Positions 21,153-43,060 of a stretch of 43,183 nt of DNA are shown piece after piece; within the stretch, counting starts at the first letter, position 1; each line of letters begins with the position of its first letter. The notes beneath the pieces were generated by a model. It made no database searches. It worked only from the letters and a program-made list of their open reading frames with translations, and was not told the DNA's origin. The stretch spans positions 1 through 43,183 of the forward strand of contig JAQIBT010000070.1 in assembly GCA_027858915.1 (NCBI GenBank), given 5' to 3'. This DNA is from Salinisphaera sp. GTDB taxonomy: Bacteria; Pseudomonadota; Gammaproteobacteria; Nevskiales; Salinisphaeraceae. The position numbers were made by a program, and so were the translations under genes.

Positions 21153-21279
21153 AGTCAATGCGCCAACTGAACGGGATAATCATGCGGAGCCACGCCGCCT
21201 GCAGCACAGATTATCTCTATCCTATTGTGCAGGATGGGCGTGTCAAAGCCGTTCACTTGCCAATGACCGATGCACGCCC

Positions 21280-28349: not shown

Positions 28350-29773
28350 TGGTAGCTAGCGCCAGAGACCAGGCAAAAAAGCTGGTCGCCCGCCGGACCC
28401 GCTCCTGGAGCGCAGGCTTCGCAGCAATGATGCTGTTGAGCGGCTGCGCTTCCGTGCCGATTCCGAAACCCGATGCGCCGTTGCCCGAACACTGGCAGCA
28501 CGCCAAGATCCGGACCGGCGCGCCGCAGCCAAATTATCGCGACTGGTGGCAGGCGATGGACGACCCTGCGCTTGACCAGGTGATTGATCTTTCGCTGCGG
28601 GCCAATCCCAATCTGGAGGCAGCGATCGAACGACTGCGCGCTGCACGCGCTATTTACACGCACAGCGACGCACCGTACAAGCCTTCGCTGAGCGTCGGAT
28701 CCGGCGATCCGGTCGATCCAGACGCCAGAACATCCTATTTTCAATTGGGGTTCGATGCGCGTTGGGAGCTGCCGCTGTTTGGACGAGGCAAGGCCAACCG
28801 CGCAGTGGCCAAAGGCCACCTCGACAGTGCCGCCGCCAATATTCGCGATGTACGCGTGTCGCTGGTGGCCGAGGTCGTCAAGGACTGGGTCAGGCTGCGC
28901 GCCGCACAACAACGTAGCGACGTACTCCAACAGATGCTTGCGCTGCAGGACCAACGCATCAACCTGAGTCAGGTCAGTGTGCATCTGGGGCTGGCGTCGC
29001 CCGCTTTGACCGCGAACGCGCGCTCGCGGAGGTCTGACCTGCAAGTCAAGCAGCGCCAGACCCGACACGAAATTGTCGCTGCTGCGCAACAACTGGCGCT
29101 ACTGACCGGGCGCGACGAGCCCGAGTCGGCCTGGCTGAACACCGGATCATTACCGACCCTGCACGGCTATAAGCGCGTATCGGTCCCGGCTGATCTGCTC
29201 AACACCCGGCCAGGCATTGCACTCGCCCGGGCAAAGGTCATCCATGCGGCCGGGCAACTCGGGCTGGCACGCGCCGACCGCTATCCGAGTATCGGTCTGG
29301 ACGCTTCGCTGGTGGCCTCCACCAGTCTCACCGGCTCCAACGCGAGTGGGGTCAGCGGCATCGGTTCGTTCGGGCCGGTGATTGATATGCCGTTGTTTGA
29401 TTGGGGCCTGCGCAAGGCCCGCGCACACGCCAAGGATCATTTGCTCAAGGCCGCGCTTTTCGATTATCGCGATGCCGTGCTGCAGGGCGTAGCCGACGTG
29501 GAAATACGGCTCGACGATCTGCAGAGCACCGCGGCGCAGCTGCAGACTCGCAGCACATATCTACAGCACCAGACACAGGCAGTTGCGCACGCCCGGACCC
29601 GGCACAAACTTGGCCTCGGCAGTCAGGCTCAGCTGGTCGCGTCTCAGGTGGCGACGGGCCAGGCACGACTGCAACAGATCCAGGCCGGGGCCGCTCACGA
29701 CCTGGCCTACGTCGCGCTGTACAAGGCATTGGGCGGCGCCAGCAATAGTCGTATCAACAGCGCTGGCCATTGA
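28346..29773 (+). CDS. Outer-membrane efflux lipoprotein (NodT/TolC-like)
   Basis: 475 residues. A signal peptide ends in the lipobox LLSGC, with Cys34 as the lipidated residue. The body shows two outer-membrane efflux repeats: YRDWWQAMDDPALDQVI followed by NPNLEAAIERLRAARA, and later RPGIALARAKV with long helical segments. This is the NodT-type channel that spans the outer membrane and periplasm. Unlike RND operons it sits before an ABC permease, ATPase and membrane-fusion gene, supplying the outer part of that pump. It overlaps the kinase by 4 bp, and its TGA shares one base with the permease ATG. Confidence 0.92.
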   Translation: MMVASARDQAKKLVARRTRSWSAGFAAMMLLSGCASVPIPKPDAPLPEHWQHAKIRTGAPQPNYRDWWQAMDDPALDQVIDLSLRANPNLEAAIERLRAARAIYTHSDAPYKPSLSVGSGDPVDPDARTSYFQLGFDARWELPLFGRGKANRAVAKGHLDSAAANIRDVRVSLVAEVVKDWVRLRAAQQRSDVLQQMLALQDQRINLSQVSVHLGLASPALTANARSRRSDLQVKQRQTRHEIVAAAQQLALLTGRDEPESAWLNTGSLPTLHGYKRVSVPADLLNTRPGIALARAKVIHAAGQLGLARADRYPSIGLDASLVASTSLTGSNASGVSGIGSFGPVIDMPLFDWGLRKARAHAKDHLLKAALFDYRDAVLQGVADVEIRLDDLQSTAAQLQTRSTYLQHQTQAVAHARTRHKLGLGSQAQLVASQVATGQARLQQIQAGAAHDLAYVALYKALGGASNSRINSAGH

Positions 29774-30906
29774 TGGTTTCCCTAGCACGCAAGACTCTGA
29801 TTCACGAATGGCGGCGTTTTTTGCCCGCAACGCTTGCGGTGGGGTTTTCGACCTTGTTGCAGTTATTGCAGGCTGCCCTGGTGCTGGGTATTTTCGGCGG
29901 CGCAGCGGTCTATATCAATGACTCGAGCGCCGATATCTGGATCGGCTATCCGGGCACCCAGGCTATCGATCTGGGCCGAGCGATTGATGGCGATGTGGCA
30001 TCGCTGCTGGACATGAATCACGAGGTGACCCGAGTCGAGCCGTTCTACCTGCTGGACGGTGACTGGCGTGGCGGACACGGCACCGGCGGCGTATCGGTGT
30101 ATATCTCCGGCATCAGTACCCAGCCGGGCGGGATGATGTTCGCGCGCGTGCTCACGCCTGTGTTACGTGCCAAACTGACCTATCCGGAGTCGGTGATTGT
30201 CGACCCGGCAGATCTGACCAAGCTCGGGGTCAAGGTCGGAGGCACCGCCGCCATCAACGGCCATCTGGTGCGAGTGGTCGCAACGGCCCCTGGTCTGCGA
30301 GCCTTGGGCGGCGTCGATATTCTCGCATCGCTGCAGACCGCGCGCCTGCTCGATTCATCCGCCGGCGAGGCCGGTGGCCCGACCTATCTGGTCGCCCGGC
30401 TTCGTCACCCGGCAAACGCCGGTCGGGTCGTGGCTGATTTGAATGGCCACACCGGCTTCGGCCGGTATCACGCCTGGACCGCGCCACAGTTTGCCCGACG
30501 CTCGGTGCTGTTCTGGCTGTTCAATACCGGTGCCGGTGCTGGCGTGCTGTTCCTGGCGGTGGTCGTATTTGCAGTCGGCGCGATTATCACCAGTCAGGCG
30601 CTGGTAGCAGCGGTGGCAGCCTCGGTGAATGAATACGCGACTCTCAACGCGCTCGGCGTCGGCCGGCGCCAACTGCGATGGGTGGTGCTCGAACAGGCAT
30701 TCTGGGTCGGCGCCTGCGGTGTGATACTAGCCAGCGTGCTGGCAGGGCTGCTGATATGGCTGGCGCAAAGTGAAAACGTGCCGGTCGCGGTGAGTGTGCC
30801 GGTGCTGTCGGCTTGTCTGGTGCTGGTGATGGTACTGGTAGGTATCTCCGGATTGATGGCGATGCGCACCTTGCGCCGCGCCGATCCCGCCACTCTGTTG
30901 AGGTAG
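29773..30906 (+). CDS. ABC transporter permease, DevC/FtsX-like
   Basis: 377 residues. An N-terminal helix (about 20-45) is followed by a periplasmic domain of about 190 residues (MacB_PCD-like, starting VYINDSSADIWIG). Three C-terminal helices lie at about 235-270, 300-325 and 340-365, with the characteristic cytoplasmic NEYATLNALGVGRRQLRWV coupling segment after the second helix. This is the MacB/DevC topology of mechanotransmission ABC proteins with the ATPase as a separate gene. The ATG overlaps the preceding stop (TGATG). A TTG one codon earlier is also in frame. Confidence 0.9.
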   Translation: MVSLARKTLIHEWRRFLPATLAVGFSTLLQLLQAALVLGIFGGAAVYINDSSADIWIGYPGTQAIDLGRAIDGDVASLLDMNHEVTRVEPFYLLDGDWRGGHGTGGVSVYISGISTQPGGMMFARVLTPVLRAKLTYPESVIVDPADLTKLGVKVGGTAAINGHLVRVVATAPGLRALGGVDILASLQTARLLDSSAGEAGGPTYLVARLRHPANAGRVVADLNGHTGFGRYHAWTAPQFARRSVLFWLFNTGAGAGVLFLAVVVFAVGAIITSQALVAAVAASVNEYATLNALGVGRRQLRWVVLEQAFWVGACGVILASVLAGLLIWLAQSENVPVAVSVPVLSACLVLVMVLVGISGLMAMRTLRRADPATLLR

Positions 30907-30910
30907 TCTG

Positions 30911-31663
30911 ATGCCAGAACTCGTGCCGCCGCTCCCCTCGTCTGCGACTCTGGTCGCTCAGAACATCGCCAAATCTTTCGCCTCCGGGCGCCTGACGACA
31001 CCCGTGCTGAGCAATCTGTCGGTCAGCATAGACGCCGGCGAGCTGACTCTCATTTCCGGGCCGTCGGGCTGCGGTAAAAGCACGCTGCTGTCGATTCTGA
31101 GCGGCCTGCAGACACCGGATGCAGGCCATGTCATGGCGTTATCCGAGTCTCTTCAGACCATGGACAGTCATCGCCGAGAGGCTTTTCGTCTGCACCACAC
31201 CGGGTTCGTATTCCAGGGCTTCAATCTGTTTCCGGCGCTGACTGCACGCGAGCAGGTCCGCCTGCCGCTGCAGTATCTGGATTTGTCATCACAGGAAATC
31301 GATCGCCGCACCGATGAATCACTTGAAGAGGTGGGCATCGCCCATCGCCACCACCTGCGACCGGCAGAGCTGTCCGGCGGCGAAAAACAGCGGGTTGCCA
31401 TCGCCCGCGCACTGGCTAAATTGCCGGCGCTGCTGTTTGCCGACGAACCGACCAGCGCGCTGGACGCCGCTAGTGGCCAGGTGATCATCGATTTGCTGCA
31501 TCGCATCGCCCGGGCTCACGGCACCACGGTGCTGTGCGTCAGCCATGACCCACGCCTGATCAGTCACGCCGATCGCGTATTGACTATGGAGGATGGACGT
31601 ATTCTTAACGACTCACGCCAGCTCACGCCTCATCGACCTCAGGACAGACGCGCCTCATGCTGA
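30911..31663 (+). CDS. ABC transporter ATP-binding protein, LolD/DevA-like
   Basis: 250 residues. Walker A GPSGCGKS (50-57), Q-loop VFQGFNL, signature LSGGEKQR, Walker B LLFADEPTSALD (Asp179, Glu180) and the H-loop SHDPR are all intact. The pattern with FQ-x-FNLxPxLT is that of the LolD/MacB/DevA ATPases that drive mechanotransmission exporters. It starts 4 bases after the permease stop and overlaps the membrane-fusion gene by 7 bp. It is expected to work as a dimer at the cytoplasmic face with two permease copies. Confidence 0.95.
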   Translation: MPELVPPLPSSATLVAQNIAKSFASGRLTTPVLSNLSVSIDAGELTLISGPSGCGKSTLLSILSGLQTPDAGHVMALSESLQTMDSHRREAFRLHHTGFVFQGFNLFPALTAREQVRLPLQYLDLSSQEIDRRTDESLEEVGIAHRHHLRPAELSGGEKQRVAIARALAKLPALLFADEPTSALDAASGQVIIDLLHRIARAHGTTVLCVSHDPRLISHADRVLTMEDGRILNDSRQLTPHRPQDRRASC

Positions 31664-32631
31664 AGAAAAGATATGTCCGGGGCCGCCTCCTTGCCGTGTT
31701 CGTCGCCCTGTTGGTGGCCGTGGCGGCCGGCGTGGTCGCAATGGCAGGCACTGCCGACACCTCTCGAAGTGCGCAGGCCGAACACCAGGGCCAAAGCCCA
31801 TATGCCGCGGTCGCCCGCGGCCGGGTCGCGGTCAAGGGCGGGATGATATCACTGCATGTGCCCGTAGCTGGCACGGTCGATACCGTCAAGGCGCAAGCCG
31901 GCGACGATGTGCACAAGGGTCAACTGCTGGCACAACTCGATCCACAGGTCGCCCAGGCCCGCCTCGATATTGCCGGCGCCAAACTGACTCAGGCACGAAC
32001 ACAGAGTGACATCCTTGCCGACCGTCTGAAGGCCGCACGCAGCAACGCCGGCAAGCTGCGAAGTGCAGCGCGTGCGGGTGCCGGCTCAGCACACGATGCC
32101 GACGCTGCCGCTCAACAGGTTCGCGAGCTGAAATGGCAACTGAAAGGCGACAGGGCGCAGGTGCAGATCGCCCAGGGCCAGGTGGCTATCGCCAGACATC
32201 AGCTGGCACAACACCGCATCACGGCGCCGGCAGCCGGTCGTATCGTCACTGTCCACATACAGGCAGGTGACCAGCTTAGCGCGGCTTCAAAACCCGCCTT
32301 CGAGTTGCTCCCCGACCGGCAACGCGTGATCCGAGCCGAACTCAATCAGGAGTATGTGGAGGCCGTCCGTCCGGGGATGCAGGCACAGGTCGTGCTGGAT
32401 AACGGCAATCAGAAAATTCTGGGTACGGCACACGTGGTCCGCGTAGGCGATGTATTCCACCAGCCCAGCCTGGAAAACAACCCGGCCCTGAATGCCGGCA
32501 CCCGTACCGTGCTGTGTGTGCTGCGCTTCGACAAACCCACCCATCTGCGCATCGGGCAACTGGTACTGGTACGCGTTCTTCGCCAATCCTCGCCGTCGAC
32601 GTCTGCCACACCATCCGCGAAAGGCTCTTGA
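31657..32631 (+). CDS. Membrane-fusion protein, HlyD/DevB-like
   Basis: 324 residues. One N-terminal membrane anchor lies at about 12-32. A lipoyl/barrel-sandwich half motif follows (ISLHVPVAGTVDTVKAQAGDDVHKGQLLAQLD), then a helical hairpin rich in Ala, Gln and Lys (about 105-185), the second half motif ITAPAAGRIVTVHIQAGDQL, and a beta-barrel region. This periplasmic adaptor joins the ABC permease to the outer-membrane factor encoded three genes upstream. It ends the operon. In DevBCA systems the adaptor usually comes first, so the gene order here is rearranged. The exported substrate cannot be told. Confidence 0.9.
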   Translation: MLKKRYVRGRLLAVFVALLVAVAAGVVAMAGTADTSRSAQAEHQGQSPYAAVARGRVAVKGGMISLHVPVAGTVDTVKAQAGDDVHKGQLLAQLDPQVAQARLDIAGAKLTQARTQSDILADRLKAARSNAGKLRSAARAGAGSAHDADAAAQQVRELKWQLKGDRAQVQIAQGQVAIARHQLAQHRITAPAAGRIVTVHIQAGDQLSAASKPAFELLPDRQRVIRAELNQEYVEAVRPGMQAQVVLDNGNQKILGTAHVVRVGDVFHQPSLENNPALNAGTRTVLCVLRFDKPTHLRIGQLVLVRVLRQSSPSTSATPSAKGS

Positions 32632-32874: not shown

Positions 32875-33711
32875 ATGAATCGCAACGTTGAATTCGTATT
32901 TCAGGGTGACAAGCGAGGCGTCCTGTTGATTCACGGCCTGACCGGCACCCCGCAGGAAATGCGGCTTCTCGGCAAGGGCCTGAACAACCGCGGATTCACC
33001 ACGCGTGGCGTTCAGCTCGCCGGCCACTGCGGCAGCGTCGATGACCTGCTCGCCACCCGCTGGGAGGATTGGTATCAGAGCGTGGAGGCCGCCGCGCGCG
33101 AAATGCGGGATACGGTAGATCAGCTGTTTGTCGCCGGCTTGTCGATGGGTGCCCTGCTCGCCCTGCGGCTTGCCGAAGAGCAGCCGACGTGGGTCGACGG
33201 CGTCGGTGTTCTGGGCGCCACGTTTCGCTACGACGGATGGAGTATTCCCGCCGTTGGCCGTCTGTCGTTCCTGCTGCCTTGGCTCAAGCGCGTGGGCATC
33301 GGCCGCGAACGCGTGTTCATGGAGCAACCGCCGTATGGGCTGCGTGACAAGAACCTGCGGTTTCAGATCAGCCAGATGATGGCCAGCGGCGACAGCAGCG
33401 AAGCCGGCCTGCCAGGCAATCCCTGGCACGCGCTCGCCGAATTGCATTTGTTCGCCCGTCAGGTGCGTCGCGATCTGGCCCGCGTAAGCGCGCCCTGCCT
33501 GATCGCCCACGCAACTGAAGACGATATCGCCTCGCGCTGGAACGCCGAGCTCGTGGCACGGCACGTCAGCGGCCCTTCCGAGTTCCTGTGGCTGGAAGAC
33601 AGCTACCACATGATTACCATCGACCGGGAACGACGGCTCCTGATGACCCGCCTGGCCGAATTCTTCGCCCGGCTGGCCCAACAGGCGACGGCCGTGGGCA
33701 ACGCCGCGTGA
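32875..33711 (+). CDS. Alpha/beta hydrolase (carboxylesterase/thioesterase-like)
   Basis: 278 residues. The fold reads GVLLIHGLTGTPQEMR with the oxyanion HGLTG, the nucleophile Ser90 in AGLSMGAL, the probable acid in ATEDD and the catalytic His in DSYHMITID. Spacing is that of Est30-like monoacylglycerol or carboxyl esterases. ATG 32875 is chosen because family similarity begins there; the frame is open ten codons further upstream. It lies 19 bp before the first EamA half transporter and opens the plus-strand part of the accessory cluster. It could act as a thioesterase or deacylase in that pathway, which is inference. Confidence 0.85.
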   Translation: MNRNVEFVFQGDKRGVLLIHGLTGTPQEMRLLGKGLNNRGFTTRGVQLAGHCGSVDDLLATRWEDWYQSVEAAAREMRDTVDQLFVAGLSMGALLALRLAEEQPTWVDGVGVLGATFRYDGWSIPAVGRLSFLLPWLKRVGIGRERVFMEQPPYGLRDKNLRFQISQMMASGDSSEAGLPGNPWHALAELHLFARQVRRDLARVSAPCLIAHATEDDIASRWNAELVARHVSGPSEFLWLEDSYHMITIDRERRLLMTRLAEFFARLAQQATAVGNAA

Positions 33712-33730
33712 CCGACGGTACACACCAGCC

Positions 33731-34090
33731 ATGACGCCTTTGGTGCTGGCGCTGTGGCTGCTCGTCGAATTGCTCGATACCGCCGGGCAGCTTGTATTCA
33801 AGACCGCCGCCAACCACGGCGGTGAAGCCGATGGCTGGGCCCACTGGCGGCATATGCTGGCCCGCCCGTGGATATGGCTGGGCGGCGCCTGTTACGTGTT
33901 CGAGTTCCTCGCCTGGACCGCGTTTCTGTCGTTGATCCCCCTGGGCCGCGGCATTCTGCTCGGTTCGATCAACATCGTCGCCATCATGATCGCCGGGCGG
34001 CTGCTGTTCGGCGAGCGCCTGACCCGCCTCCGGGTGATCGGCATCCTGCTGGTCACGCTCGGCGTAGCCATCGTCGGAATCGGCACATGA
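33731..34090 (+). CDS. Small four-helix EamA/SMR-like transporter subunit A
   Basis: 119 residues with four predicted membrane helices. It has the half-EamA pattern: an N-terminal helix with a polar DTAGQLVFKTAA end, a middle WIWLGGACYVFEFLAW, PLGRGILLGSINIVAIMIAG, and a final GILLVTLGVAIVGIG. Length and layout resemble ArnE/ArnF, which pair as a flippase for undecaprenyl-phosphate-linked aminoarabinose. It overlaps the next, similar gene by 4 bp, so the two probably form a heterodimer. The substrate is unknown; a lipid-linked product of the cluster is a reasonable guess. Confidence 0.8.
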   Translation: MTPLVLALWLLVELLDTAGQLVFKTAANHGGEADGWAHWRHMLARPWIWLGGACYVFEFLAWTAFLSLIPLGRGILLGSINIVAIMIAGRLLFGERLTRLRVIGILLVTLGVAIVGIGT

Positions 34091-34464
34091 AACGTTTCTA
34101 CCTGATCGGCTTCGCCGTATTGATGAGCTTCGACACGCTGGCCCAGATCAGTTTCAAATACGCCGGCGACCATGCCCTGCCCGTGCAGGCCAACGCCGCC
34201 TGGTTGTTGCGCCTGTTCGGCCAACCCTGGGTATACGGCGCGGTCATCGGCTATATCGGTGCTTTTTTTGCGTATATGACGCTGCTGCGCCGCGCGCCCA
34301 TCGGCCCGGCTTTTGCCGCCTCACATCTGGAGGTCGTCAGCGTGCTGTTGCTGTCGGTACCACTGTTCCACGAATCCATCGGCTGGGCCCAGGCTCTGGG
34401 CGCCACCGCCATCGTTGCCGGCATTGTCTGCCTGGCCATGAGCGAGTCGGATGACGGTCAGTGA
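34087..34464 (+). CDS. Small four-helix EamA/SMR-like transporter subunit B
   Basis: 125 residues and four membrane helices, parallel to the preceding subunit: FDTLAQISFKYAGDHA at the end of helix 1, a GYIGAFFAYMTLLRRAPIGPAFAAS middle part and a GATAIVAGIVCLAM end. The shared D-T-x-x-Q-x-x-F-K-x-A motif in both subunits shows that they arose by duplication. The ATG overlaps the upstream TGA (ATGA). Its own end overlaps a further small hydrophobic frame by 14 bp. The pair belongs with the esterase gene in one plus-strand operon. Confidence 0.8.
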   Translation: MKRFYLIGFAVLMSFDTLAQISFKYAGDHALPVQANAAWLLRLFGQPWVYGAVIGYIGAFFAYMTLLRRAPIGPAFAASHLEVVSVLLLSVPLFHESIGWAQALGATAIVAGIVCLAMSESDDGQ

Positions 34465-34783
34465 TCTCTACAAGGCACATAACGAGCGCGATTGGGCCTA
34501 CGTCTCTCTGCCAACTTTAGCGATCGCCGTAGTCCCGCTGATCTGGCTTCCGAAGGCACTCGCCGTTCTCTTGTGGTTCGTGCTTTCTGCCGCCGCCCTG
34601 TCTCTCCGCATACGGTACTGTCGACGGCTGTTCGCGGACGATTCCGGACCGCTGCACACTTTTCGCGCTCTATTGCCGGTCGTGCTGGTTATGCGGTCTG
34701 TGCATACTGCCTCTTGGCGGCTTGCTGACCATGGCTTGCCAGCAGCCCGATCAGGCATCCAAGAGACGTCCATGGCAAATTAA
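34451..34783 (+). CDS. Small hypothetical membrane protein
   Basis: A 110-residue frame that starts 14 bp inside the end of the preceding EamA-like gene. It has one broad hydrophobic stretch (about residues 18-52), perhaps two helices, then a basic segment (RIRYCRRL) and a weaker hydrophobic segment. I recognise no family. Translational overlap with the transporter pair speaks for a real gene. The lower GC bias at third positions near the end and the lack of a Shine-Dalgarno sequence of its own speak against it. It could be a degraded remnant. Confidence 0.4.
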   Translation: MTVSDLYKAHNERDWAYVSLPTLAIAVVPLIWLPKALAVLLWFVLSAAALSLRIRYCRRLFADDSGPLHTFRALLPVVLVMRSVHTASWRLADHGLPAARSGIQETSMAN

Positions 34784-34904
34784 CGCGGCGGGCATTGCGA
34801 CTGCCTACGGGCACTTCGTCAATGGTCGGAGAAAACGCCTGCCAATGAAAGACGGGATGCCTGCCGATCAAATCACTCGTATTCGCTGAGCGCCGAGCGA
34901 ATGC

Positions 34905-36029
34905 TTACCCACTGACCTTGGCTTTTGTCGAGCTGAATTGTTCGTTGGCAACGGATTCCGACCTCTGACTCGGGCGGCACAAAGCTGCATCGCGCTGCGC
35001 ATCGGCCAGCTCAGTCAGATGAGCCTTGATCTGCACCGGTGTAATCTGGAGCATACACTCGCAGTTGGTCGGATCGGTCTCGCCTTTCGGCACTGGACAA
35101 TGGGTGCACTTTCCGGCCCGTTGAAAAGTGCGTGTGCGCGGGCCAATGGGTCCCCAGCGGCCCGTGTGCTTGGCTCGAAACGGTACATAAATGCCTACCG
35201 TGGCTTTACCCAGCGCAGCCGCTATATGCAGCGGGCCGGTACTGACGGCGAGCAAGCCGTCAGCGGCGTCAATCAGGCTGATCAACTCAGCGAGCGAGAT
35301 ACGGCCCATCAGGTCTTTGACGTGCGCCAGATGCATGGGTAGTTCGTCTCGTACCAACTCGCCCTCGCGCGCGCTACCCGTCACCAGCACGTTGAATCGC
35401 TCGGGCGGGAGGCTCTCGATCAGCTGGGCAAAATAGTGACTTGGCCATTCCCGCGAACTACCGGCTGATTTCGGATGGACGATCAGGTTGAATTTTCCGG
35501 CTTCCAGGTATGCGCCAATAGACGCCGGTAGCGGCGGGATATTGCTCAAGCCGAAGTACGAGCCGATTTCATCCAGCTCGTAGAATCGCTCGATGCCCAC
35601 GCCGCGCAGCAGTTGAATATTCAACTGTGCTTCATGCAGCGGCGAGTGGTGCCGGCGCAGATACAGCAGGCGGTTGCAATTAGGCCAGTGATACAGACGT
35701 CTGATGGTACCGATACGCTTTGGTATGTGTGCCTGACGAGCCAGTCTTGCGACTTCGGACTTGGGGTAAATATGAATAATCGCATCTGCGTCAAAGGCCT
35801 TGAACCGCGCGATCCGCTCTGCCTGACTCGGCAACTCCGCGATTTCGTCCCAGGCATAGACTTCGTCAATATATTCACAGCATTCCGCCAGCGGCGCGGT
35901 ATAGCGCTGGCCGAGCAGCGAAACCTTACAGCCAGGAAAGGTGGCCTTGAGAATGCCCGCCATCGGCAACGTCAAAATGACGTCGCCCAGCTTATCGGCT
36001 CTATTAAGCAAAAAATGAGGATGTTTCAT
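34905..36029 (-). CDS. Family 9 glycosyltransferase (heptosyltransferase-like)
   Basis: 374 residues. The start NRADKLGDVILTLPMAGILK is the N-terminal signature of the family, including the G-D. The C-terminal half has the nucleotide-sugar region KSAGSSREWP and STGPLHIAAALG, and ends with a Cys-rich C-x-x-C-P...C-x-C-M stretch common near the C-terminus of GT9 enzymes. Such enzymes transfer heptose or related sugars to the inner core of lipopolysaccharide at the cytoplasmic face. ATG 36029 is chosen because similarity begins immediately after it. It is isolated on the minus strand between the transporter pair and the arginase-like gene. Confidence 0.9.
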   Translation of the reverse strand: MKHPHFLLNRADKLGDVILTLPMAGILKATFPGCKVSLLGQRYTAPLAECCEYIDEVYAWDEIAELPSQAERIARFKAFDADAIIHIYPKSEVARLARQAHIPKRIGTIRRLYHWPNCNRLLYLRRHHSPLHEAQLNIQLLRGVGIERFYELDEIGSYFGLSNIPPLPASIGAYLEAGKFNLIVHPKSAGSSREWPSHYFAQLIESLPPERFNVLVTGSAREGELVRDELPMHLAHVKDLMGRISLAELISLIDAADGLLAVSTGPLHIAAALGKATVGIYVPFRAKHTGRWGPIGPRTRTFQRAGKCTHCPVPKGETDPTNCECMLQITPVQIKAHLTELADAQRDAALCRPSQRSESVANEQFSSTKAKVSG

Positions 36030-36223
36030 GTCAATTCCATATCGGAATATCTCGTGGGTAGCCTTGCAGTCGTTCATCACATCGGTGAACCACTCTGCGG
36101 CAGGCTACGGGGTATCTCTGAGGCCGGTCCGATAGCTGCTTAAGGGCGTGTGGTGTCGGCGCCTACTTCTTGCGCCGCAAGCAGCGGGGAGTGACATCCT
36201 CAGAGATTCAATGATGTGGCCTC

Positions 36224-37099
36224 TCAGTCCATGGCCCACGCATCCTCGATTGCCTCTAGCAATCGTTGATTCAACGCATGTTGTTGCGGCTGCCACGCCG
36301 TCAGTTGCTCGGACGTGACTTCAGGCTGGTGATCCAGCGCCGACAGCCGTCGCTTCCACCACTGGGCATAGCGGGCTAGGGATATCTCGCCGGTGATATC
36401 GCCACCGACGATGCGGCCGTGCAGCGTCTCGATCACGTCCAGCAGGCCGCTGGCGCGCATACGGCCCTGATCCCAGTTGGTGCGTGCGTCTTCGACGCCG
36501 AGCACATCCTTGTCGATCGATAGATACACTGGCGATGTCCGAGACGATATATAGGCGCCAAACGACGCCAGCAGCGCATCGACGCTATCGAAATCCTTGA
36601 ACGCCCGACCCAGGCCAAGCGTGCTGGCCCAGCCCACGGACACGCCCGTCGACCAGTACGTCAGCCGACCGGCAAACAGCGGCCAGAGTCGATTTTCCCA
36701 GGCATGTCCCGCGCCAATATCGCCAGAGGTAATACCGACCACATGCACGTGGCGCACCTGCGCCAGAGCCGCGACGGCACTCACCCACGAGCCGCAGTGC
36801 ACGCCGAAGGGAAAACGCATGTTGTCTGGATGGTTGTCGAAGATCACGACATCCAATGGTCCGTGCATCGCGCTGACGCGCTCGATCAGCGGCAGACTCA
36901 GATGATGGAAGTCACCGCTGCCGGTGAATACCACCCCGGTATCGACCGGCAGCATTTCGGGCAGACCGCGCGAGAACGCACGCAGCGCACGCCGGCTGCA
37001 GGCAAACCGCAGACGCTGGCCCCACACGGCTATCCGCGACCGATGGGCGCCGGCCAGTTCGCCGACCGACCCGTCGACGTCAAGTACGACGGGACGCAT
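36224..37099 (-). CDS. Arginase/ureohydrolase-fold protein
   Basis: 291 residues. The three metal-binding motifs of the ureohydrolase superfamily appear in modified form: GSGDFHH (63-66) for GGDHS, FDNHPDN (Asp88, His90, Asp92) for DAHxD, and SIDKD (Asp196, Asp198) for SxDxD. All six expected manganese ligands are therefore possible, but the surroundings differ from true arginases and agmatinases, so the substrate is probably not simple arginine. A deacetylase-like or novel amidino or amide hydrolase role is open. The start at ATG 37099 overlaps the end of the acyltransferase-like gene by 20 bp, so the two are co-translated. Both belong to the ACP/ketosynthase cluster. Confidence 0.7.
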   Translation of the reverse strand: MRPVVLDVDGSVGELAGAHRSRIAVWGQRLRFACSRRALRAFSRGLPEMLPVDTGVVFTGSGDFHHLSLPLIERVSAMHGPLDVVIFDNHPDNMRFPFGVHCGSWVSAVAALAQVRHVHVVGITSGDIGAGHAWENRLWPLFAGRLTYWSTGVSVGWASTLGLGRAFKDFDSVDALLASFGAYISSRTSPVYLSIDKDVLGVEDARTNWDQGRMRASGLLDVIETLHGRIVGGDITGEISLARYAQWWKRRLSALDHQPEVTSEQLTAWQPQQHALNQRLLEAIEDAWAMD

Positions 37100-38195
37100 G
37101 GTCGGCCTGCTCCTCGTACCAGTGGCTATCGCTTTCGAAATGGCCCGACAGTCGCCGAAGTACAGCGCGCAGCAGCCTATTGCGGGGGCGCACGGCATGT
37201 CGGGTAAACGTCATGCGCGCACCCAGATGTGCCTTGACCTCCGGATCGGTCCAGCCGGCGATGAAGCGCTTCAGGCCGCGTAGTCGGGCATATTCCAGAT
37301 TGTGCATCCAGCTGACCGCATACAGATTGAGTTCGCGCGACATCGCATAGTCGAAACCGACATACTTATCGACCAGGGCGCCCTGGTACTCGAAGCACAG
37401 ATTCCAGCCGATCACTCGACCCTCGTGGCGATAAACAAACATCACGCCACCGCTGTCGGCGTCTGCGAACACAGCCCGGAAGAAATCCGCCTGCAAATGA
37501 TCGAAATGCACTTCGCTCTGGGCAAAGACCTGTTCGTAGAGCGCGATCAGCGCATCCTGCATGTCGGGATCACGCAGCACCGTGCAGCCTGTGGCGAGCG
37601 CTTCGATCTCCAGCCGATCGCGCGAGCGCAGCTTGCGCCGGATGTTGCGCCGAGCGCCACGCGACAGACGTTTCAGATAGGCGTCCTCGCTATCGAAATC
37701 GATCGGTACCCAGGCCAGCGCCTGGCCTTCGACCAGAATGAAGCCGGCTGCCTCGCAGGCGGTCGCGAACCCATCGGCAAAAGCGTTGGCATGCGCATCC
37801 AGCAAGGGCGACGCGCAGGGCAGATCCTTGATGATGAAAAACGGGCACTCGCGCCCGTGTGCCGCTAGCAGCTCGTCGGCCAACTCCGAGGCACTGGCAG
37901 TCGCCGGCAGCCAGGCATACTCGCTGACGGTTGAGCCAATAAAGCGCGTTCGGGGTTGTAATAACCGCTGCCAGTAGCGGTATAGCGGTAAACGTCGCAC
38001 GCGATCACGCACGGCTGGATCAGCCGTGGTCAACAAATCAAACCGCGTCGAGAACGTCGGTATATCGTAGAGCGTCGTCCCGGCAGAAAAGCCGTCGGGC
38101 GGGTACGCTTGCACATCGCGCACCAGCGACGAGGGCTCCAACTGGCCGATGAAAGCTTCGTGCAAGGTTCGATGCCTAAGCTGCGAACCTGGCAT
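37080..38195 (-). CDS. FemAB/GNAT-like acyltransferase
   Basis: 371 residues. The C-terminal half is GNAT/FemAB-like: a basic segment RGARRNIRRKLRSRDRLEIE, then ALYEQVFAQSEVHFDHL, a substrate-facing GGVMFVYRHEGRVIGWNLCFEY and DKYVGFDYAMSRELNLYAVSWMHNLEYA near the end. The family joins aminoacyl or acyl groups to amines. Here the divergent neighbour is an acyl carrier protein, so acyl-ACP may be the donor, which is inference. ATG 38195 is chosen; the frame is open to 38531 but that would run antisense through the ACP gene. The gap to the ACP start is 66 bp and must hold both promoters. It overlaps the arginase-like gene by 20 bp. Confidence 0.7.
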   Translation of the reverse strand: MPGSQLRHRTLHEAFIGQLEPSSLVRDVQAYPPDGFSAGTTLYDIPTFSTRFDLLTTADPAVRDRVRRLPLYRYWQRLLQPRTRFIGSTVSEYAWLPATASASELADELLAAHGRECPFFIIKDLPCASPLLDAHANAFADGFATACEAAGFILVEGQALAWVPIDFDSEDAYLKRLSRGARRNIRRKLRSRDRLEIEALATGCTVLRDPDMQDALIALYEQVFAQSEVHFDHLQADFFRAVFADADSGGVMFVYRHEGRVIGWNLCFEYQGALVDKYVGFDYAMSRELNLYAVSWMHNLEYARLRGLKRFIAGWTDPEVKAHLGARMTFTRHAVRPRNRLLRAVLRRLSGHFESDSHWYEEQADHASRRT

Positions 38196-38261
38196 CAGGC
38201 CGGTGCGCCTTGCGCATGCCCGACACGCACAGCCTTGTAGCCGCCGGCGAGGAAACCGAAT

Positions 38262-38534
38262 ATGACCGCGACAGTCCAGGACCAGATTTTCGAAATTATC
38301 GAAGAATACGCCCAGATTGATGCAGCCAGCATCCGACTCGACAGCACTATTCGCGACCTGGGTATCGCATCCCTGGATACGATCGAAATCCTCTTCGATA
38401 TCGAGGAGCATTTCGACATCACCCTGCCGGAACTCGATCCCGAATTCGAGACCGATAACGTGCAACGGCTGATCGCGATTGTCACCCAGGCCGTGGACAG
38501 CAACGCCCAGAGCAGCGTCGCGACGAAGCACTGA
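38262..38534 (+). CDS. Stand-alone acyl carrier protein
   Basis: 90 residues, acidic, with the four-helix ACP layout. The phosphopantetheine site is Ser37 in GIASLDTIEILFDIEEHF, where Ala replaces the usual Asp of D-S-L. It is not the housekeeping acpP, which lies with fab genes and reads DSLD. It starts 66 bp from the divergent acyltransferase-like gene and is followed 36 bp later by a FabF-type ketosynthase. It probably tethers the acyl chain handled by that ketosynthase. Loading needs a phosphopantetheinyl transferase encoded elsewhere. Confidence 0.9.
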   Translation: MTATVQDQIFEIIEEYAQIDAASIRLDSTIRDLGIASLDTIEILFDIEEHFDITLPELDPEFETDNVQRLIAIVTQAVDSNAQSSVATKH

Positions 38535-38570
38535 TCGCCAGCGTTATTCATCTTATCCATGGAGCATTAC

Positions 38571-39791
38571 ATGCATCGTGTTGTGATAACCGGTATGGGC
38601 GCCGTCAGCGCGCTCGGCCTGGGAGCGGCGCCACTCTGGCGCGCGATGGTGGAGGGACGCAGCGGCATCAGGCCGCTGGTCTCGCCTGATCCGGAGGCCG
38701 TGCTGCGCATGCAAGTAGGCGCGCAGCTGCCGGCATTCGATCCCGCTCAGCATTTTGACGATGCGCGTCTGAGCCTGCTCGACCCGATCTCGCAATTCGC
38801 CCTGGTTGCTGCCCGCGAGGCCATCGCTCAGTCCGGCATCGATTTTTCGACCGGAGACCTGGGCGACCGCACCGCCACCGTAATCGGTACCGGTGTGGGC
38901 GGCGAGGCCTCGCGCGACCATCAGAGCCGGCGCCTGTATCGCGACAACGCAAAACGCATCCACCCGCTGTCGATCCTGCGCTTGATGCCGAACGCACCCG
39001 CCAGCCATATCACTATCGAACACGGCCTCAGAGGCCCTGCCTTCGGCGTAACCAGCGCCTGCGCATCGTCCAACCACGCCATCACTCAGGCAGTCGCCAT
39101 GCTGCGTACCGGGCTCGCCGACGCTGCCCTGGCGGGCGGCACGGATGCCAGTTTCAGCCTGTCCGGAATCCGCGGATGGGAAGCGATGCGCGTAGTGGCA
39201 CCCGATACCTGCCGGCCCTTCTGCAAACAGCGCCGCGGGCTGGTGCTGGGCGAAGGCGCGGGCATGCTGGTGCTCGAGACACTGGCTCATGCGCAGGCCC
39301 GCGGCGCGGTGATCCTGGCCGAACTGGCCGGCACCGGCATGAGCGCTGACGCGGTCAATATTGTTGCCCCGTCGGCCGACGGGGCGGCGCGCGCTATCCG
39401 CGCTGCCCTGCAGGACGCCCAGCTCAGACCGGAGCAAATTGGTTATATCAATGCGCACGGCACCGCGACCATCGCTGCCGACGCGAGCGAAACACGCGCT
39501 ATTCATATGGCGTTCGGCGAGCACGCAAAACGGCTTGCGGTGTCTGGGACCAAGGCCATACACGGCCACGCTCTGGGCGCGTCTGGCACGCTGGAAATCG
39601 TGGCCGCGGTCGGCGCTCTGCGTGAAGGCGTGATCCCGCCCACTGCCAACTTCCTCGACCCGGATCCGGCCTGCGATCTGGACTATGTGCCCAACACCGC
39701 ACGCGAGCAGCGCGTCGATGCCGTGCTGTCCAATTCCTTTGCTTTTGGCGGGCTCAATGCGGTACTTGCGCTGCGACGCTTCGACGGCTGA
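38571..39791 (+). CDS. Beta-ketoacyl-ACP synthase, FabF-like
   Basis: 406 residues of the thiolase fold. The Cys-His-His triad is visible: Cys164 in SACASSNHA, His296 in NAHGTAT and His333 after Lys328 in GTKAIHGHALGASG. These enzymes condense an acyl-thioester with malonyl-ACP. ATG 38571 is preferred over ATG 38559 because GGAG then lies six bases upstream and similarity starts with RVVITGMG. It follows a dedicated ACP by 36 bp, and no reductase or dehydratase is nearby. It may therefore make a single ketoacyl intermediate, or rely on the housekeeping Fab enzymes. Confidence 0.9.
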   Translation: MHRVVITGMGAVSALGLGAAPLWRAMVEGRSGIRPLVSPDPEAVLRMQVGAQLPAFDPAQHFDDARLSLLDPISQFALVAAREAIAQSGIDFSTGDLGDRTATVIGTGVGGEASRDHQSRRLYRDNAKRIHPLSILRLMPNAPASHITIEHGLRGPAFGVTSACASSNHAITQAVAMLRTGLADAALAGGTDASFSLSGIRGWEAMRVVAPDTCRPFCKQRRGLVLGEGAGMLVLETLAHAQARGAVILAELAGTGMSADAVNIVAPSADGAARAIRAALQDAQLRPEQIGYINAHGTATIAADASETRAIHMAFGEHAKRLAVSGTKAIHGHALGASGTLEIVAAVGALREGVIPPTANFLDPDPACDLDYVPNTAREQRVDAVLSNSFAFGGLNAVLALRRFDG

Positions 39792-39812
39792 ACGCCGCTC
39801 GTCATAACGGCC

Positions 39813-39840
39813 GCTGCCCCGGCGAAGTTGCCGGGGCAGC
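39813..39840. terminator. Perfect GC-rich hairpin between convergent genes
   Basis: GCTGCCCCGGC at 39813-39823 pairs perfectly with GCCGGGGCAGC at 39830-39840 around a six-base loop. It lies between the ketosynthase stop and the aminotransferase stop. No T-tract follows on either strand, so it may act as a bidirectional transcript-end structure or a stabiliser rather than a classical intrinsic terminator. Confidence 0.6.
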
Positions 39841-39877
39841 CCCATCAAGGCTGTATCCGTCATCATGCGAAGCGACT

Positions 39878-41290
39878 TCAGCCGGCACGCTTGGCTTTGA
39901 TCAGCATCTGATCCAGCAGAGCGATGCCCAGATCGATCTCTTCGGTGCTGATATGCAGCGACGGCGCAAACGTAATCACGTTCTTGTAGTAGCCGCCGAT
40001 ATCCAGCACCAGACCCATCTTGCGGCCGTTGTGCTCGAGTTCGGCACCCAGCCCGATATCGACCATGCGATCGACCAGCGCCTTGTTCGGGGTAAAACCG
40101 TCCTCGGTACAGATCTCGGCGCGCAGCGCCAGACCGAGGCCGTCGACGTCGCCGATCTCCTTGTGGCGTTTCTGGAGATCCTGCAGGCCTTCCAGAAAAT
40201 ACGCGCCCTTGGCCATGACCATCGACTCGTAGTCGGTTTCCTGCATCATGTGCATGGCTTCCAATGCCACCGCGGTACCCAGCGGGTTGGCGTTGAAGGT
40301 CGAATGCGTCGAGCCGGGCGGGAACACCTCGGGATTGATCAATTCCTCGCGTGCCCACAGGCCAGACAGCGGGTTCAGGCCGTTGGTCAGCGCCTTGCCG
40401 AACACGATGATGTCCGGCGTCACGCCGAAGTGCTCGATCGACCATAGCTTGCCGGTGCGATAGAAACCCATCTGGATCTCGTCGCTCACCATCAGGACCC
40501 CGTGCTGGTCCAGTACTTTCTTCAGGCCCTTGAAGTAGTTCATCGGCGGCACGATGTAGCCACCGGTGCCTTGCAACGGCTCGACATAGAACGCGGCGTA
40601 CTCGCATTCGCCGACCTTTGGATCCCATACGCCGTGGTATTCGGTCTCGAACAGGCGGGCAAAATCGGCCACCAGGTATTCACCGTATTCTTCCTTGTCC
40701 ATGCCCTTCGGCCGGCGAAACGGATACGGATACGGCATGAACTTCGCCCGTTCGCCAAAATGCCCGTAGCGACGACGATAGCGATAGCTGGAAGTGATCG
40801 CCGAGGCGCCCAGGGTTCGGCCGTGATAGCCGCCTTCAAAGGCAAACATCAGACTCTTGCCGCCAGTGTAGTTGCGCACAATCTTGAGCGAATCCTCGAT
40901 CGCCTGTGCACCGCCGACGTTGAAATGCACGCGACCGGGCAAACCGAACTTCTGCTCGGCGTCCACGGCAATCGTCTTGGCCAGCTCGATCTTCTCGCGG
41001 TGCAGGTACTGGCTGGCGACCTGCGGCAGACGATCGATCTGTTGCTTCAGCGCATCATTGAGCCGCGGATTGGCATAGCCGAAATTAACCGCTGAATACC
41101 ACATCTGCAGGTCGAGATACGGCGTGCCAGCGGTATCGAACATATAACTGCCTTCGCAGCTGTCAAACAGCTTGGGCGGGTCGGTGTAGTGCACCGTATC
41201 GCCGAAAGAGCAGTACTGCGCCTCGTCAGCAAGCAATGCTTCGTCGGTCTGTTCTGAAGAAAAAATAGTGGGCTGGAGAACGCTGTTCAT
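39878..41290 (-). CDS. Class III PLP aminotransferase
   Basis: 470 residues. Class III features are present: VHFNVGGAQAIEDSLKIVRNYTG, FEGGYHGRTLGA, VEPLQGTGGYIVP, SDEIQMGFYRTGK with the PLP-binding Asp, and the lysine in VFGKALTNGLNPLSG. Class III enzymes move amino groups from amine or omega-amino-acid donors to ketones or aldehydes. The protein differs clearly from the EctB/DoeD-like enzyme earlier in the window. ATG 41290 is chosen; the frame is open 18 codons further upstream without a better start signal. Placed by the ketosynthase and ACP, it could aminate a beta-keto product. Confidence 0.9.
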   Translation of the reverse strand: MNSVLQPTIFSSEQTDEALLADEAQYCSFGDTVHYTDPPKLFDSCEGSYMFDTAGTPYLDLQMWYSAVNFGYANPRLNDALKQQIDRLPQVASQYLHREKIELAKTIAVDAEQKFGLPGRVHFNVGGAQAIEDSLKIVRNYTGGKSLMFAFEGGYHGRTLGASAITSSYRYRRRYGHFGERAKFMPYPYPFRRPKGMDKEEYGEYLVADFARLFETEYHGVWDPKVGECEYAAFYVEPLQGTGGYIVPPMNYFKGLKKVLDQHGVLMVSDEIQMGFYRTGKLWSIEHFGVTPDIIVFGKALTNGLNPLSGLWAREELINPEVFPPGSTHSTFNANPLGTAVALEAMHMMQETDYESMVMAKGAYFLEGLQDLQKRHKEIGDVDGLGLALRAEICTEDGFTPNKALVDRMVDIGLGAELEHNGRKMGLVLDIGGYYKNVITFAPSLHISTEEIDLGIALLDQMLIKAKRAG

Positions 41291-41399
41291 GTTATTTGCA
41301 CTCTTTAGGAAAGGCTGGACAACAGAGCTTGCGCCGTGATCCACGGTGTCTTCGCTGTAGTTTCAGAATCGACGATCAGAAATCCCTTTGTTACGGGCA

Positions 41400-42065
41400 C
41401 TAGCACGCCACTGCGCGCGCCATGGCAAGCTCTGGTAGTCGGGCCAATAACGACCGAGCCTCGTGAAAATCGGCGATTGGCTGATGAGGAATACCGAGCC
41501 CACGGCAATGAGTAATCAGCCGGTGTTTGGCGAACACGTAGTCCGCGCTATCGGCCACGCAGAAATCGGAGCGGCCGTCGCCAACCAGCAGGGTGTCGGC
41601 ATGCTGGCTGGCAATACTGCACTTGCAGGTGCCGCTGGCTGCCGCACAGCCCGCGTAGGCGTAAGGGGACAGCATCGACCAGCCGCGCACCCCGTCGTGG
41701 ACGACATGGTTGGCGCGCACCGGCAGGTGGCCCAGGCCGTGGCGCGCAAGTATGCGACTGATGGCATAGTCGAGGCCGTCGCTGACCACCATCACCGACA
41801 TGTCTTGTCGCCGGGCCTCGGCGACGAAATCGGGAAACCCTGGATCGATCGGCAGCGTGTCGAGCAAAGCGTCGACCGTCTGGCGCGACGCATCGATCAG
41901 TGCAACCTGTTGCGTCATGCACTCTCGTGAACCGATGACCCCCCGTTGCCAGTCAGCCTCGATGCGCTTCCACTCTGGTGCCGCCAGACGCGACAACAGG
42001 ACATCCGTGACATCATCTCCGGCGATGGTGCCATCAAAATCGCAGAGTATTGTCCACTGGCTCAA
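41400..42065 (-). CDS. HAD-family phosphatase, MtnX/SerB-like
   Basis: 221 residues. HAD motif I is CDFDGTIAGDD (Asp9, Asp11), motif II VVSDGLDY, and motif III LLVGDGRSDFCVAD. A helical cap follows motif I, as in class IB phosphatases (phosphoserine phosphatase, MtnX, phosphocholine phosphatase). The substrate is unknown but probably a small phosphorylated metabolite. The start appears to be TTG 42065, with AGGTG five bases upstream and the family start immediately after. A cluster of Cys residues (SGTCKCS) occurs in the cap-core loop. It lies between the aminotransferase and the 2OG oxygenase on the same strand. Confidence 0.85.
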   Translation of the reverse strand: MSQWTILCDFDGTIAGDDVTDVLLSRLAAPEWKRIEADWQRGVIGSRECMTQQVALIDASRQTVDALLDTLPIDPGFPDFVAEARRQDMSVMVVSDGLDYAISRILARHGLGHLPVRANHVVHDGVRGWSMLSPYAYAGCAAASGTCKCSIASQHADTLLVGDGRSDFCVADSADYVFAKHRLITHCRGLGIPHQPIADFHEARSLLARLPELAMARAVAC

Positions 42066-42153
42066 AAGAACACCTACGCTCAGATTGAATCTGTGCGTAG
42101 GCTAGCGAGCTTATCTTTCGGCGCCCTTTCCGATCGGCGCTATACGCGATTTA

Positions 42154-42166
42154 CAACAGGCCCTAG
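42154..42166. repeat. Solo end sequence like the MITE-like element
   Basis: CAACAGGCCCTAG is identical to the outer 13 bases of the right end of the 273-bp element at 25942-25954. It overlaps the stop codon of the 2OG-oxygenase gene. No second end is found nearby, so it is either a relic or chance. Confidence 0.3.
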
Positions 42167-42888
42167 CTCTTTTGCAAAACCTTGCGCTTCACCGTAGCGA
42201 GCACTCGGTGTAGCCCGGCGCGCAGCGGGTCGTTGATCACGACAATAAATACCTTGCGGTAGTAACCCTCCGGGCAGGTGATTTCGCGCACGCCGTGCCA
42301 GGAGCCTTCCTTGCGCTGAAAAAGCAGACTGGCGTTACCCTGGCTTTCGGCTGCATAACGGGCGTTGAAATCGGCGAAGTCGGGCGCCGAGCGGCGTTCG
42401 AAACGTCCACCGTCGTCCAGAATAATGGTATCGCCGCCCCAGGCCGGATCCCACGTGTCAGGCGCGTTGAAGTAAAAGATATGCGAGCCGAGCTTGCGCG
42501 TGGCATCGCAGTGAGGCGAAACCGAGGCACCGCGCGGCGCATAATGCCAATGGAAAACCGTTTGAAGGCGACGACAGCCAAACATTCGCTGGATGAATCG
42601 CTGATATCTATCGCTCTTGAGTTCCGAGACGAACGCATGCCATTCCGGCGCTATAGGCAGGTCGTCCCGATATTCCAACGCGTAACGATCGTGTGGCTGC
42701 TGCCCGTGCGAGCGCTTGACACCGAATACCGGCGTCATCTGCTCGACCGTCGGCAATGTCTCGACTAATCTGTCGTAGCCGGCATCCTCGATCAGGCCCA
42801 CTGGGTTGAGCCAGGGATAGGGATGCGTCTGCTGGAACTTGTCGGCGCTCATCGCCTCCAAGCGGTCATAATCGAGAAAATCGTTCAT
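42163..42888 (-). CDS. 2-oxoglutarate/Fe(II)-dependent oxygenase
   Basis: 241 residues. The jelly-roll metal site reads SPHCDA (His126, Asp128) with distal His198 in SWHGVREI and the 2-oxoglutarate-binding arginine at about 211 in YRKVF. GGDTIILDDGG fits the strand between them. Such enzymes hydroxylate small molecules, sugars or lipids. ATG 42888 has GAGGTG seven bases upstream. It is the last gene of the accessory group before the insertion sequence and could add a hydroxyl group to the cluster product or to a surface glycan; neither is shown. Confidence 0.85.
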   Translation of the reverse strand: MNDFLDYDRLEAMSADKFQQTHPYPWLNPVGLIEDAGYDRLVETLPTVEQMTPVFGVKRSHGQQPHDRYALEYRDDLPIAPEWHAFVSELKSDRYQRFIQRMFGCRRLQTVFHWHYAPRGASVSPHCDATRKLGSHIFYFNAPDTWDPAWGGDTIILDDGGRFERRSAPDFADFNARYAAESQGNASLLFQRKEGSWHGVREITCPEGYYRKVFIVVINDPLRAGLHRVLATVKRKVLQKS

Positions 42889-43060
42889 CGGGCACCTCAT
42901 CGAACCAGGCAGCAGCGCCTGATCTGTGTCAGATTCTAATACGCCAGCGGGTTGCCAACTCGTTCACCTTGGCGCTTTCTTCGCGTCCGCAGTTTGCATT
43001 ATAACGCAACCAATTCGTTTAAAAACAATTAGACACCACGCGTTAGAAAAAAGTATGCTA

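Follow-up and report, generated by a model that had tools for sequence, protein, structure and literature searches.

The stretch of Salinisphaera sp. DNA analysed here (the window) is one whole contig, JAQIBT010000070.1, of 43183 bases from a genome of 4.33 Mb in 169 contigs, and it carries a modular set of genes that recurs elsewhere and whose catalytic residues are intact. On the plus strand, an alpha/beta hydrolase gene (est; 32875..33711; PF12146), whose product is monoacylglycerol lipase/Est30-like and possibly an acyltransferase, is followed by two EamA/SMR half-transporter genes, A (33731..34090) and B (34087..34464), which overlap by 4 bases and both match PF00892. An arginase-fold metallohydrolase (36224..37099; PF00491 and a fold model) and a FemAB/GNAT-type transferase (37080..38195; PF13480, PF04339 and a fold model) lie beyond them on the minus strand, the most likely start of the arginase-like gene being the ATG at 37099, inside the overlap with the FemAB gene. 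A dedicated acyl carrier protein (ACP; 38262..38534; PF00550) and a FabF-like condensing ketosynthase (KS; 38559..39791; PF00109/PF02801) are encoded on the plus strand, and a class III aminotransferase (AT3; 39878..41290; PF00202) and an MtnX-like HAD-IB phosphatase (41400..42065; TIGR01489, 92.3 bits, above the cut-off of 81.55) on the minus strand. Open reading frames (ORFs) were judged by eye (at least 70 aa in 29-43 kb, at least 200 aa in 1-29 kb) and scanned in part against Pfam; all the genes that an earlier note had listed for this DNA are present at 32875-42900 with Pfam support (Hydrolase_4, EamA twice, GT9, Arginase, Acetyltransf_6/FemAB_like, PP-binding, ketoacyl-synt, Aminotran_3 and HAD).

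How the set is built becomes apparent when related loci are compared. Fifty-nine loci were gathered for carrying FemAB, arginase-fold or AT3 genes, so the tallies over them are conditional on that choice; they were made with six-frame ORFs against profiles, and some stretches end at a contig edge or are cut (e.g. L011, L013, L071, L110 and L111). The esterase was counted in 54 loci, HAD and AT3 in 52 each, the arginase-fold gene and FemAB in 51 each, SMR genes in 50, KS and ACP in 32 each, a DegT aminotransferase in 29, a DevC-like permease in 26, a MipA-like gene in 15 (6 of them weak, at <80 bits), a desaturase in seven (two with KS) and a CFA synthase in five. Several of these genes travel in pairs: the arginase-fold and FemAB genes occur together in 51/51 loci and KS and ACP in 32/32, neither member of either pair ever standing alone, and AT3 and HAD are found together in 49 loci, with 3 and 3 alone. 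SMR genes number exactly two in 49 of the 50 loci having any, the fiftieth ending at a contig edge. Five loci of alphaproteobacterial type (L114-L117 and L122) hold HAD, AT3 and esterase with no SMR, arginase or FemAB gene found in them, three of the five with KS and ACP and one with CFA synthase, and in the stretch of L009 no AT3 or HAD was found. We read this pattern as a nested pathway, in which HAD, AT3 and the esterase come first and the SMR pair next, FemAB and the arginase-fold enzyme form a paired decoration step, KS and ACP or a desaturase or CFA synthase serve the tail, and a pump is present in some hosts. In such a scheme KS and ACP are a variable tail module, and certain other lineages carry a desaturase or CFA synthase. 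In three of the alphaproteobacterial-type loci (L115, L117 and L122, L115 being a short contig) KS, ACP, HAD, AT3 and hydrolase genes are the only members present, with no SMR, pump or FemAB/arginase gene found; such a set may be an ancestral or a reduced core.

The neighbourhood is conserved well beyond the genus. In related loci ORFs were chosen by a codon-usage scorer and neighbours compared with the window's families only. When GTDB genome contigs were scanned with the FemAB protein, 15 loci came back, belonging to Rhodanobacter, Luteibacter, Dyella, Lysobacter, Xanthomonas and some records named less closely, with the common order kinase, outer-membrane factor (OMF), two ABC genes, periplasmic adaptor (MFP), esterase, SMR, SMR, (DegT aminotransferase), arginase, FemAB, ACP/KS, AT3 and HAD. 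The DevC-like permease occurs in 11 of the 15 and the DegT gene in 13, and in the stretches of both Xanthomonas loci no KS, ACP, DegT or pump gene was found. Two other genomes of the window's genus also carry the set, with no GT9, 2-oxoglutarate (2OG) oxygenase or DegT gene in the stretches read. The genes are thus neighbours in two same-genus genomes, in the five named genera and on alphaproteobacterial plasmids, and the earlier note's refuting condition, a lack of such neighbourhoods in relatives, does not hold; across two classes their order is shuffled yet recognisable and the pairs are kept. Because the grouping recurs in many genera and in two classes, it is more than chance.

The same conclusion is reached when genomes rather than neighbourhoods are counted. 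The genome counts can be low, since in many genomes only a share of the first-look candidates was scored (e.g. 6/31 for the class, 12/49 and 8/15 for the family, 4/21 for the phylum). The arginase-like profile matched 3/369 genomes drawn across the class, and AT3 was found in 26/398 of a phylum draw. In one family of 198 genomes, picked around a positive genome, the arginase-like gene was present in 23 (18 at E <=1e-122 and five, all of one genus, at 1e-36 to 1e-41) and AT3 in 24, with 23 genomes in common; the sole genome with AT3 and without the arginase-like gene (G427) holds one of the related clusters (L120), where neither an arginase nor a FemAB gene was found. Within the window's own genus the two genes occupy the same 3 of 14 genomes, and one extra arginase match outside the genus (61 genomes searched) was short, contained stops and was counted as chance. 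The hypergeometric probability of such joint presence is 3.5e-29 by genome and 1.9e-9 by genus, with kinship ignored in both. The coupling also holds when the genes are unlinked: in G491, G518 and G565 they sit on separate contigs, and in G449 some 100 kb lies between them. Co-occurrence across genomes, which the earlier note had proposed as a check, is therefore borne out. Of 72,556 plasmid records, 34 carry AT3 (E up to 1e-60) and 47 carry the arginase-like gene (E up to 1e-10); the aminotransferase gene of one locus (L109) had no DNA match in 20,395 E. coli records.

Several versions of the set sit on plasmids. On pAt2788a of Agrobacterium fabrum the order is regulator, kinase, HAD, AT3, arginase, EamA, desaturase, hydrolase, GNAT (FemAB), EamA, CFA synthase, MipA/OmpV, EptA and DgkA, and plasmids of Rhizobium leguminosarum, R. 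acidisoli and Phyllobacterium match this layout as far as MipA. The Sinorhizobium cluster is without CFA synthase, that of A. larrymoorei is without both tail genes, A. salinitolerans and pAspH13-3a have a TolC/ABC pump added, and a Xanthomonas sacchari plasmid bears the full set including KS, ACP and DegT. Of the whole set, a plasmid of Bartonella sp. HY328 (L102 9968-16017) shows just three genes, those for AT3, FemAB and the arginase-like protein, and their neighbours encode a DltB-like MBOAT and an AlgX-like protein; no cluster-type SMR pair, HAD or hydrolase was found in that stretch.

A published genomic island appears to hold the same set. In the portion of the article available, island 11 of Serratia sp. 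HRI lists an OMF, an ABC permease, an ABC ATPase, an MFP, an MtnX-related phosphatase, an alpha/beta hydrolase and two DMT permeases; on the opposite strand follow an 891-bp hypothetical gene, a 'peptidogalycan' gene and a class III aminotransferase, and farther along come an ATP-binding protein, a response regulator and EptC (PMC9964261). The likeness to the window's cluster is one of gene names, order and strand; in the same portion the genes are listed separately, as efflux or hypothetical genes of a resistance island, and no KS or ACP is named (PMC9964261). Judged by names and order, the island carries the same set, unrecognised as such in that portion, and the place and length of its 891-bp gene suggest that it is the arginase-like one. 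The cargo of a Pectobacterium integrative and conjugative element includes, in the part of the paper at hand, an arginase-family gene and a mipA/ompV gene (PMC9373382). An Erwinia class III aminotransferase was set aside: as far as the accessible text goes, its locus tags stand beside a polyketide synthase/non-ribosomal peptide synthetase set and it looks unrelated (PMC9371280).

These comparisons redraw the borders of the cluster. The group singled out in the earlier note is real and conserved, but its limits differ from those given there, which omitted a regulator pair and an exporter upstream and took in two genes that drop out. The conserved set extends to 26239, with six plus-strand genes (26239-32631) running into the esterase on the same strand. 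They encode an OmpR-family response regulator, PmrA/QseB-like (26239..26916; NCBIfam PmrA 196 bits, cut-off 330), standing before the kinase as in related loci; a conserved QseC/PmrB-like sensor histidine kinase (26913..28349; QseC 195 bits, cut-off 475; PmrB 153, cut-off 314); a NodT/TolC-type outer-membrane efflux factor (28346..29773; TIGR01845, 242.6 bits, passing the cut-off of 210.05); a DevC-like ABC permease (29770..30906; TIGR01185 devC, 60 bits, cut-off 290); a DevA-like ABC ATPase (30911..31663; best NCBIfam match TIGR02982 DevA, 221.8 bits, cut-off 295.8); and a periplasmic adaptor (31657..32631; TIGR01730 RND_mfp 76.3 bits, cut-off 94.9; DevB 53, cut-off 129).

The GT9 glycosyltransferase gene (34905..36080, minus strand; PF01075) is probably not a member: 13 other same-genus genomes gave weak matches (E 2e-9 or worse, mostly 22-29% identity), and the related loci searched gave none. 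The same applies to the 2OG-Fe(II) oxygenase-like gene (42163..42900, minus strand; 2OG-FeII_Oxy_3 25.8 bits, cut-off 27), which has relatives at 61-68% in seven other same-genus genomes, orthologues away from the cluster in two other cluster-bearing genomes, and a second copy (61%) in the window's genome. Between SMR gene B and the GT9 gene, a 110-aa plus-strand ORF (34451..34783), absent from the earlier note's list, shares 63% identity over 78 aa with a 471-aa protein that is encoded inside a same-genus cluster (L026 3550-4965) and matches PF09594 (GT87). The ORF thus looks like a truncated remnant of a GT87-type membrane glycosyltransferase. A DegT remnant was sought between the second SMR gene and the arginase-like gene, and nothing better than E 0.09 was seen among the matches listed; the 110-aa ORF itself gave nothing better than E 0.15 as a DegT remnant. 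Elsewhere in the window, a DUF347-repeat membrane protein (24640-25452) adjoins a second two-component pair and has relatives (41-46%) near the cluster regulator in L070 and L073; sugar-transfer ATP-grasp, Kdo-hydroxylase (PF11004), ThuA-type and GT2 genes are adjacent at 17860-22302, possibly as a surface-glycan locus; and a single open frame at 1436-3604 joins a patatin-like domain to a class II glutamine amidotransferase domain, as a fusion or an artefact.

AT3 is 75-90% identical to ten relatives. Its pyridoxal phosphate-binding Lys is invariant (52/52), as is a Thr in place of the C-terminal Arg (52/52), and all four PDB relatives reaching that position (7vno, 9wqz, 9wrf and 5g09; 2eo5 ends earlier) have Arg there. 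The Arg of the YHGRT motif is kept in 52/52, and the two features together hint at a substrate with one anionic group. A more distant AT3 (55%) adjoins a sulfotransferase-family gene in L119 (9912-12232). In Roseomonas and Aureimonas (L123 9529-13910 and L124 9532-14149) a HemL/GntE-like class III aminotransferase lies beside the plasmid cluster, with no AT3 in the stretch, and is probably a non-orthologous replacement. The HAD protein keeps its DxD residues in 51/52 loci, the remaining one being lost at the edge of the fetched stretch. The hydrolase finds its best PDB matches in monoacylglycerol lipases, LipS and Est30; its nucleophile is Ser in 45/54 and Cys in 9/54 (L103, L104, L106, L116 and L125-L129), eight of the nine being rhizobial plasmid loci, and this Ser-to-Cys change suggests acyl transfer rather than hydrolysis.

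For the paired FemAB and arginase-fold proteins, AlphaFold2 models (resting on 14 and 15 rows) were compared with known structures. The FemAB model (pLDDT 87) is closest in the PDB to the aminoacyl-tRNA-dependent Sbb17/Sba18 and then to MprF and FemX, with ordinary acetyltransferases lower, so that the N-acylating role proposed for it in the earlier note needs qualifying; against the MprF fold Foldseek gave E ~1e-10 to 1e-7 and a query TM-score of ~0.5 at only 9-14% identity. PF13480 and PF04339 are its sole Pfam matches up to E 0.01. For the arginase model (pLDDT 82) the nearest structures are those of proclavaminate amidinohydrolase and arginases. A PF00491 score of 28.7 bits (cut-off 22), seven invariant His/Asp positions of ligand type (51/51) and the fold match place the protein in the arginase superfamily, a further His (in VHCGSW) being kept in 49/51; assignment as agmatinase was rejected (16-18 bits against NCBIfam cut-offs of 174 and 302). 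Because both query TM-scores are near 0.5, the models speak to fold, not to substrate.

The Cys-His-His residues of KS and the Ser of ACP are invariant (32/32 each). Besides this KS, the genome has a single strong PF00109 match (C137), two more being weak at 25 bits, and the cluster ACP is one of five PP-binding matches. KS falls short of the FASII FabF equivalog (432.3 bits, cut-off 493.75) and lies within the broader PRK07314 subfamily (419.4 bits, cut-off 387). In line with the earlier note, no fatty-acid-type reductase or dehydratase was seen near it, with ORFs judged by eye and a partial Pfam scan. Aryl polyene and type II polyketide clusters have several KS subunits, a ketoreductase and a dehydratase beside the ACP, and an assignment to them was discarded on account of the single KS and of no ketoreductase or dehydratase being seen beside the ACP, part of the ORFs being judged by eye. 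The SMR subunits score best with ArnF/ArnE (subunit A) and ArnF (subunit B), at 23-28 bits against cut-offs of 92 and 99, far below equivalog level.

What would such a set of genes make? The most economical account, which we regard as about evenly poised between right and wrong, is an accessory system of envelope modification, which would make an amine-bearing acyl lipid, flip it and, in many hosts, export it. The PmrAB/QseBC-like two-component pair would turn the system on. AT3 would aminate a keto or aldehyde compound, probably phosphorylated, and HAD would strip the phosphate to leave a small amino building block, a sequence resembling SerC/SerB or the making of serinol by RtxA. The hydrolase protein, acting as an acyltransferase, and the FemAB-type transferase could then add acyl and/or aminoacyl groups to this block, with the tail supplied here by the private KS and ACP and, in certain other lineages, modified by a desaturase or CFA synthase; the arginase-fold enzyme might trim a guanidino, amidino or amide group on FemAB's intermediate. 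Flipping across the inner membrane would fall to the paired EamA/SMR protein, and outward transport of the lipid to the DevBCA/TolC-like pump. The cell surface would then probably differ in its charge or in its barrier to cationic or membrane-active agents. Pumps of the DevA/DevC families are known glycolipid exporters, and the closeness of the window's pump to them argues for lipid export; EptA and DgkA follow the A. fabrum cluster, and EptC, in the part of the Serratia report available, lies near the island's cluster. The earlier note's proposal, a lipid that is acylated or aminated and flipped by a transporter pair, fits these modules, but the 2OG gene, with the hydroxylation step, and the GT9 gene fall away.

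Several observations weigh against this account. KS and ACP were not found in 27/59 stretches and FemAB and arginase not in 8/59 (some at contig ends), so that one single product is not guaranteed and the private-ACP lipid module of the earlier note may not be universal. The regulator, ABC, adaptor and SMR matches score below the curated thresholds of the families after which they are named. In Roseomonas and Aureimonas the enzyme that stands in for AT3 lacks the YHGRT Arg (YHGFS), so this residue is no fixed requirement of the pathway. The MBOAT and AlgX-like neighbours in Bartonella would suit a polysaccharide acceptor no less than a lipid one, an exported soluble amine or peptide is a conceivable alternative product, and the product, enzyme activities and phenotype of the cluster are all things that we infer.

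The strongest rival is a secreted small molecule: AT3, HAD, FemAB and the arginase-like enzyme would make a diffusible amino-alcohol, aminoacyl or guanidino metabolite, the tripartite pump would secrete it, and the SMR pair and hydrolase would protect the producer. This we consider rather unlikely. It would suit the nearness of the FemAB model to Sbb17/Sba18, which are peptide synthases solved with streptothrisamine, that of the arginase model to proclavaminate amidinohydrolase, the match of the substitute aminotransferase of Roseomonas and Aureimonas to HemL and GntE (guanitoxin) models, and the patchy, often plasmid-borne distribution; yet the KS and ACP, desaturase and CFA synthase modules indicate a lipid, the regulators' best matches include envelope-sensing ones, and no DevC-like gene was found in 33/59 stretches (some at contig ends). 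Next, and less probable again, comes modification of lipopolysaccharide or another surface glycan in parallel to Arn, with an aminotransferase, the arginase-fold protein in the place of ArnD, the ArnEF-like SMR pair and a membrane glycosyltransferase. The SMR subunits' best scores are indeed with ArnF/ArnE, although far below the cut-offs of 92-99; a DegT/ArnB-like aminotransferase is present in 29/59 loci, a same-genus locus (L026) encodes a GT87 protein, and EptA and EptC are neighbours, but no ArnA, ArnC or ArnT homologue was recognised; the GT87 gene was seen at full length in that locus only and is truncated in the window, and KS, ACP and the desaturase would be left unexplained. An ordinary mosaic of unrelated stress and transport genes kept by gene order is very improbable: HAD, esterase, EamA and ABC genes do belong to common families, but this mosaic would have to recur in two classes with its order shuffled and its pairs kept, and to yield the joint presence found in the family and the genus.

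The amine-bearing acyl lipid can be given a more specific form, which we put forward tentatively as a doubtful but attractive possibility: a horizontally spread, previously unnamed pathway that would be a third route next to Arn and MprF and would yield cationic membrane lipids of a new class, built from an amino-alcohol core by private-ACP acylation, FemAB aminoacylation, arginase-fold remodelling, SMR flipping and DevBCA-like export. As in the earlier note, no named pathway could be matched, none having been found in the open-licence literature or the families searched; that literature yielded no published name for the cluster and, in the parts available, nothing linking a serinol lipid to it. 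If the envelope-lipid account is right, plant-associated and soil bacteria, and in a variant form Roseomonas from human skin, possess an envelope-modification pathway whose genes have so far gone under separate labels such as 'efflux', 'hypothetical' and 'arginase'. Functions would then follow at once for several unnamed families, namely a subfamily of arginase-fold proteins, one of FemAB proteins and a very conserved class III aminotransferase, and the tolerance of membrane-active agents in strains with a plasmid- or island-borne cluster could become easier to explain.

How does the cluster compare with known systems? The Arn (L-Ara4N) modification of lipid A is under PmrAB-type regulation and shares with the cluster an aminotransferase and paired SMR flippase subunits, but the window's cluster has no recognised ArnA, ArnC or ArnT, its core aminotransferase is of another class, and it adds KS and ACP, HAD, FemAB and arginase-fold genes. 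The classical Arn pathway was rejected, since the scan of cluster proteins recognised no ArnA, ArnB, ArnC, ArnD or ArnT (a relative's DegT protein scored 78 with ArnB, against a cut-off of 631), as was membership of PmrAB (PmrA 196/330 and PmrB 153/314 bits over cut-offs). MprF, the aminoacyl-phosphatidylglycerol synthase, has its own Pfam domain and a fused membrane flippase; the FemAB model may share its catalytic fold (that of LPG synthase), whereas the cluster has a separate SMR pair, and identity with MprF/LPG synthase was dismissed because FemAB gave no match to the MprF domain up to E 0.01. OlsB and N-acyl amino acid synthases share a GNAT-type transferase near an ACP, the cluster adding an aminotransferase, a phosphatase and an arginase-fold gene; OlsB itself was rejected, FemAB having no match up to E 0.01 to PF13444 (Acetyltransf_5), the OlsB domain. 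The DevBCA-TolC heterocyst glycolipid exporter offers the best NCBIfam match for the window's ATPase and permease, with membership again rejected (DevA 222/296, DevB 53/129 and DevC 60/290 bits over cut-offs). For the chemistry of AT3 and HAD a possible model is RtxA, which, in the part of the source available, forms serinol in rhizobitoxine synthesis by amination of dihydroxyacetone phosphate followed by dephosphorylation, in a different pathway, the comparison being one of reactions (PMC3222319). Arn, MprF and Ols are kept as analogies.

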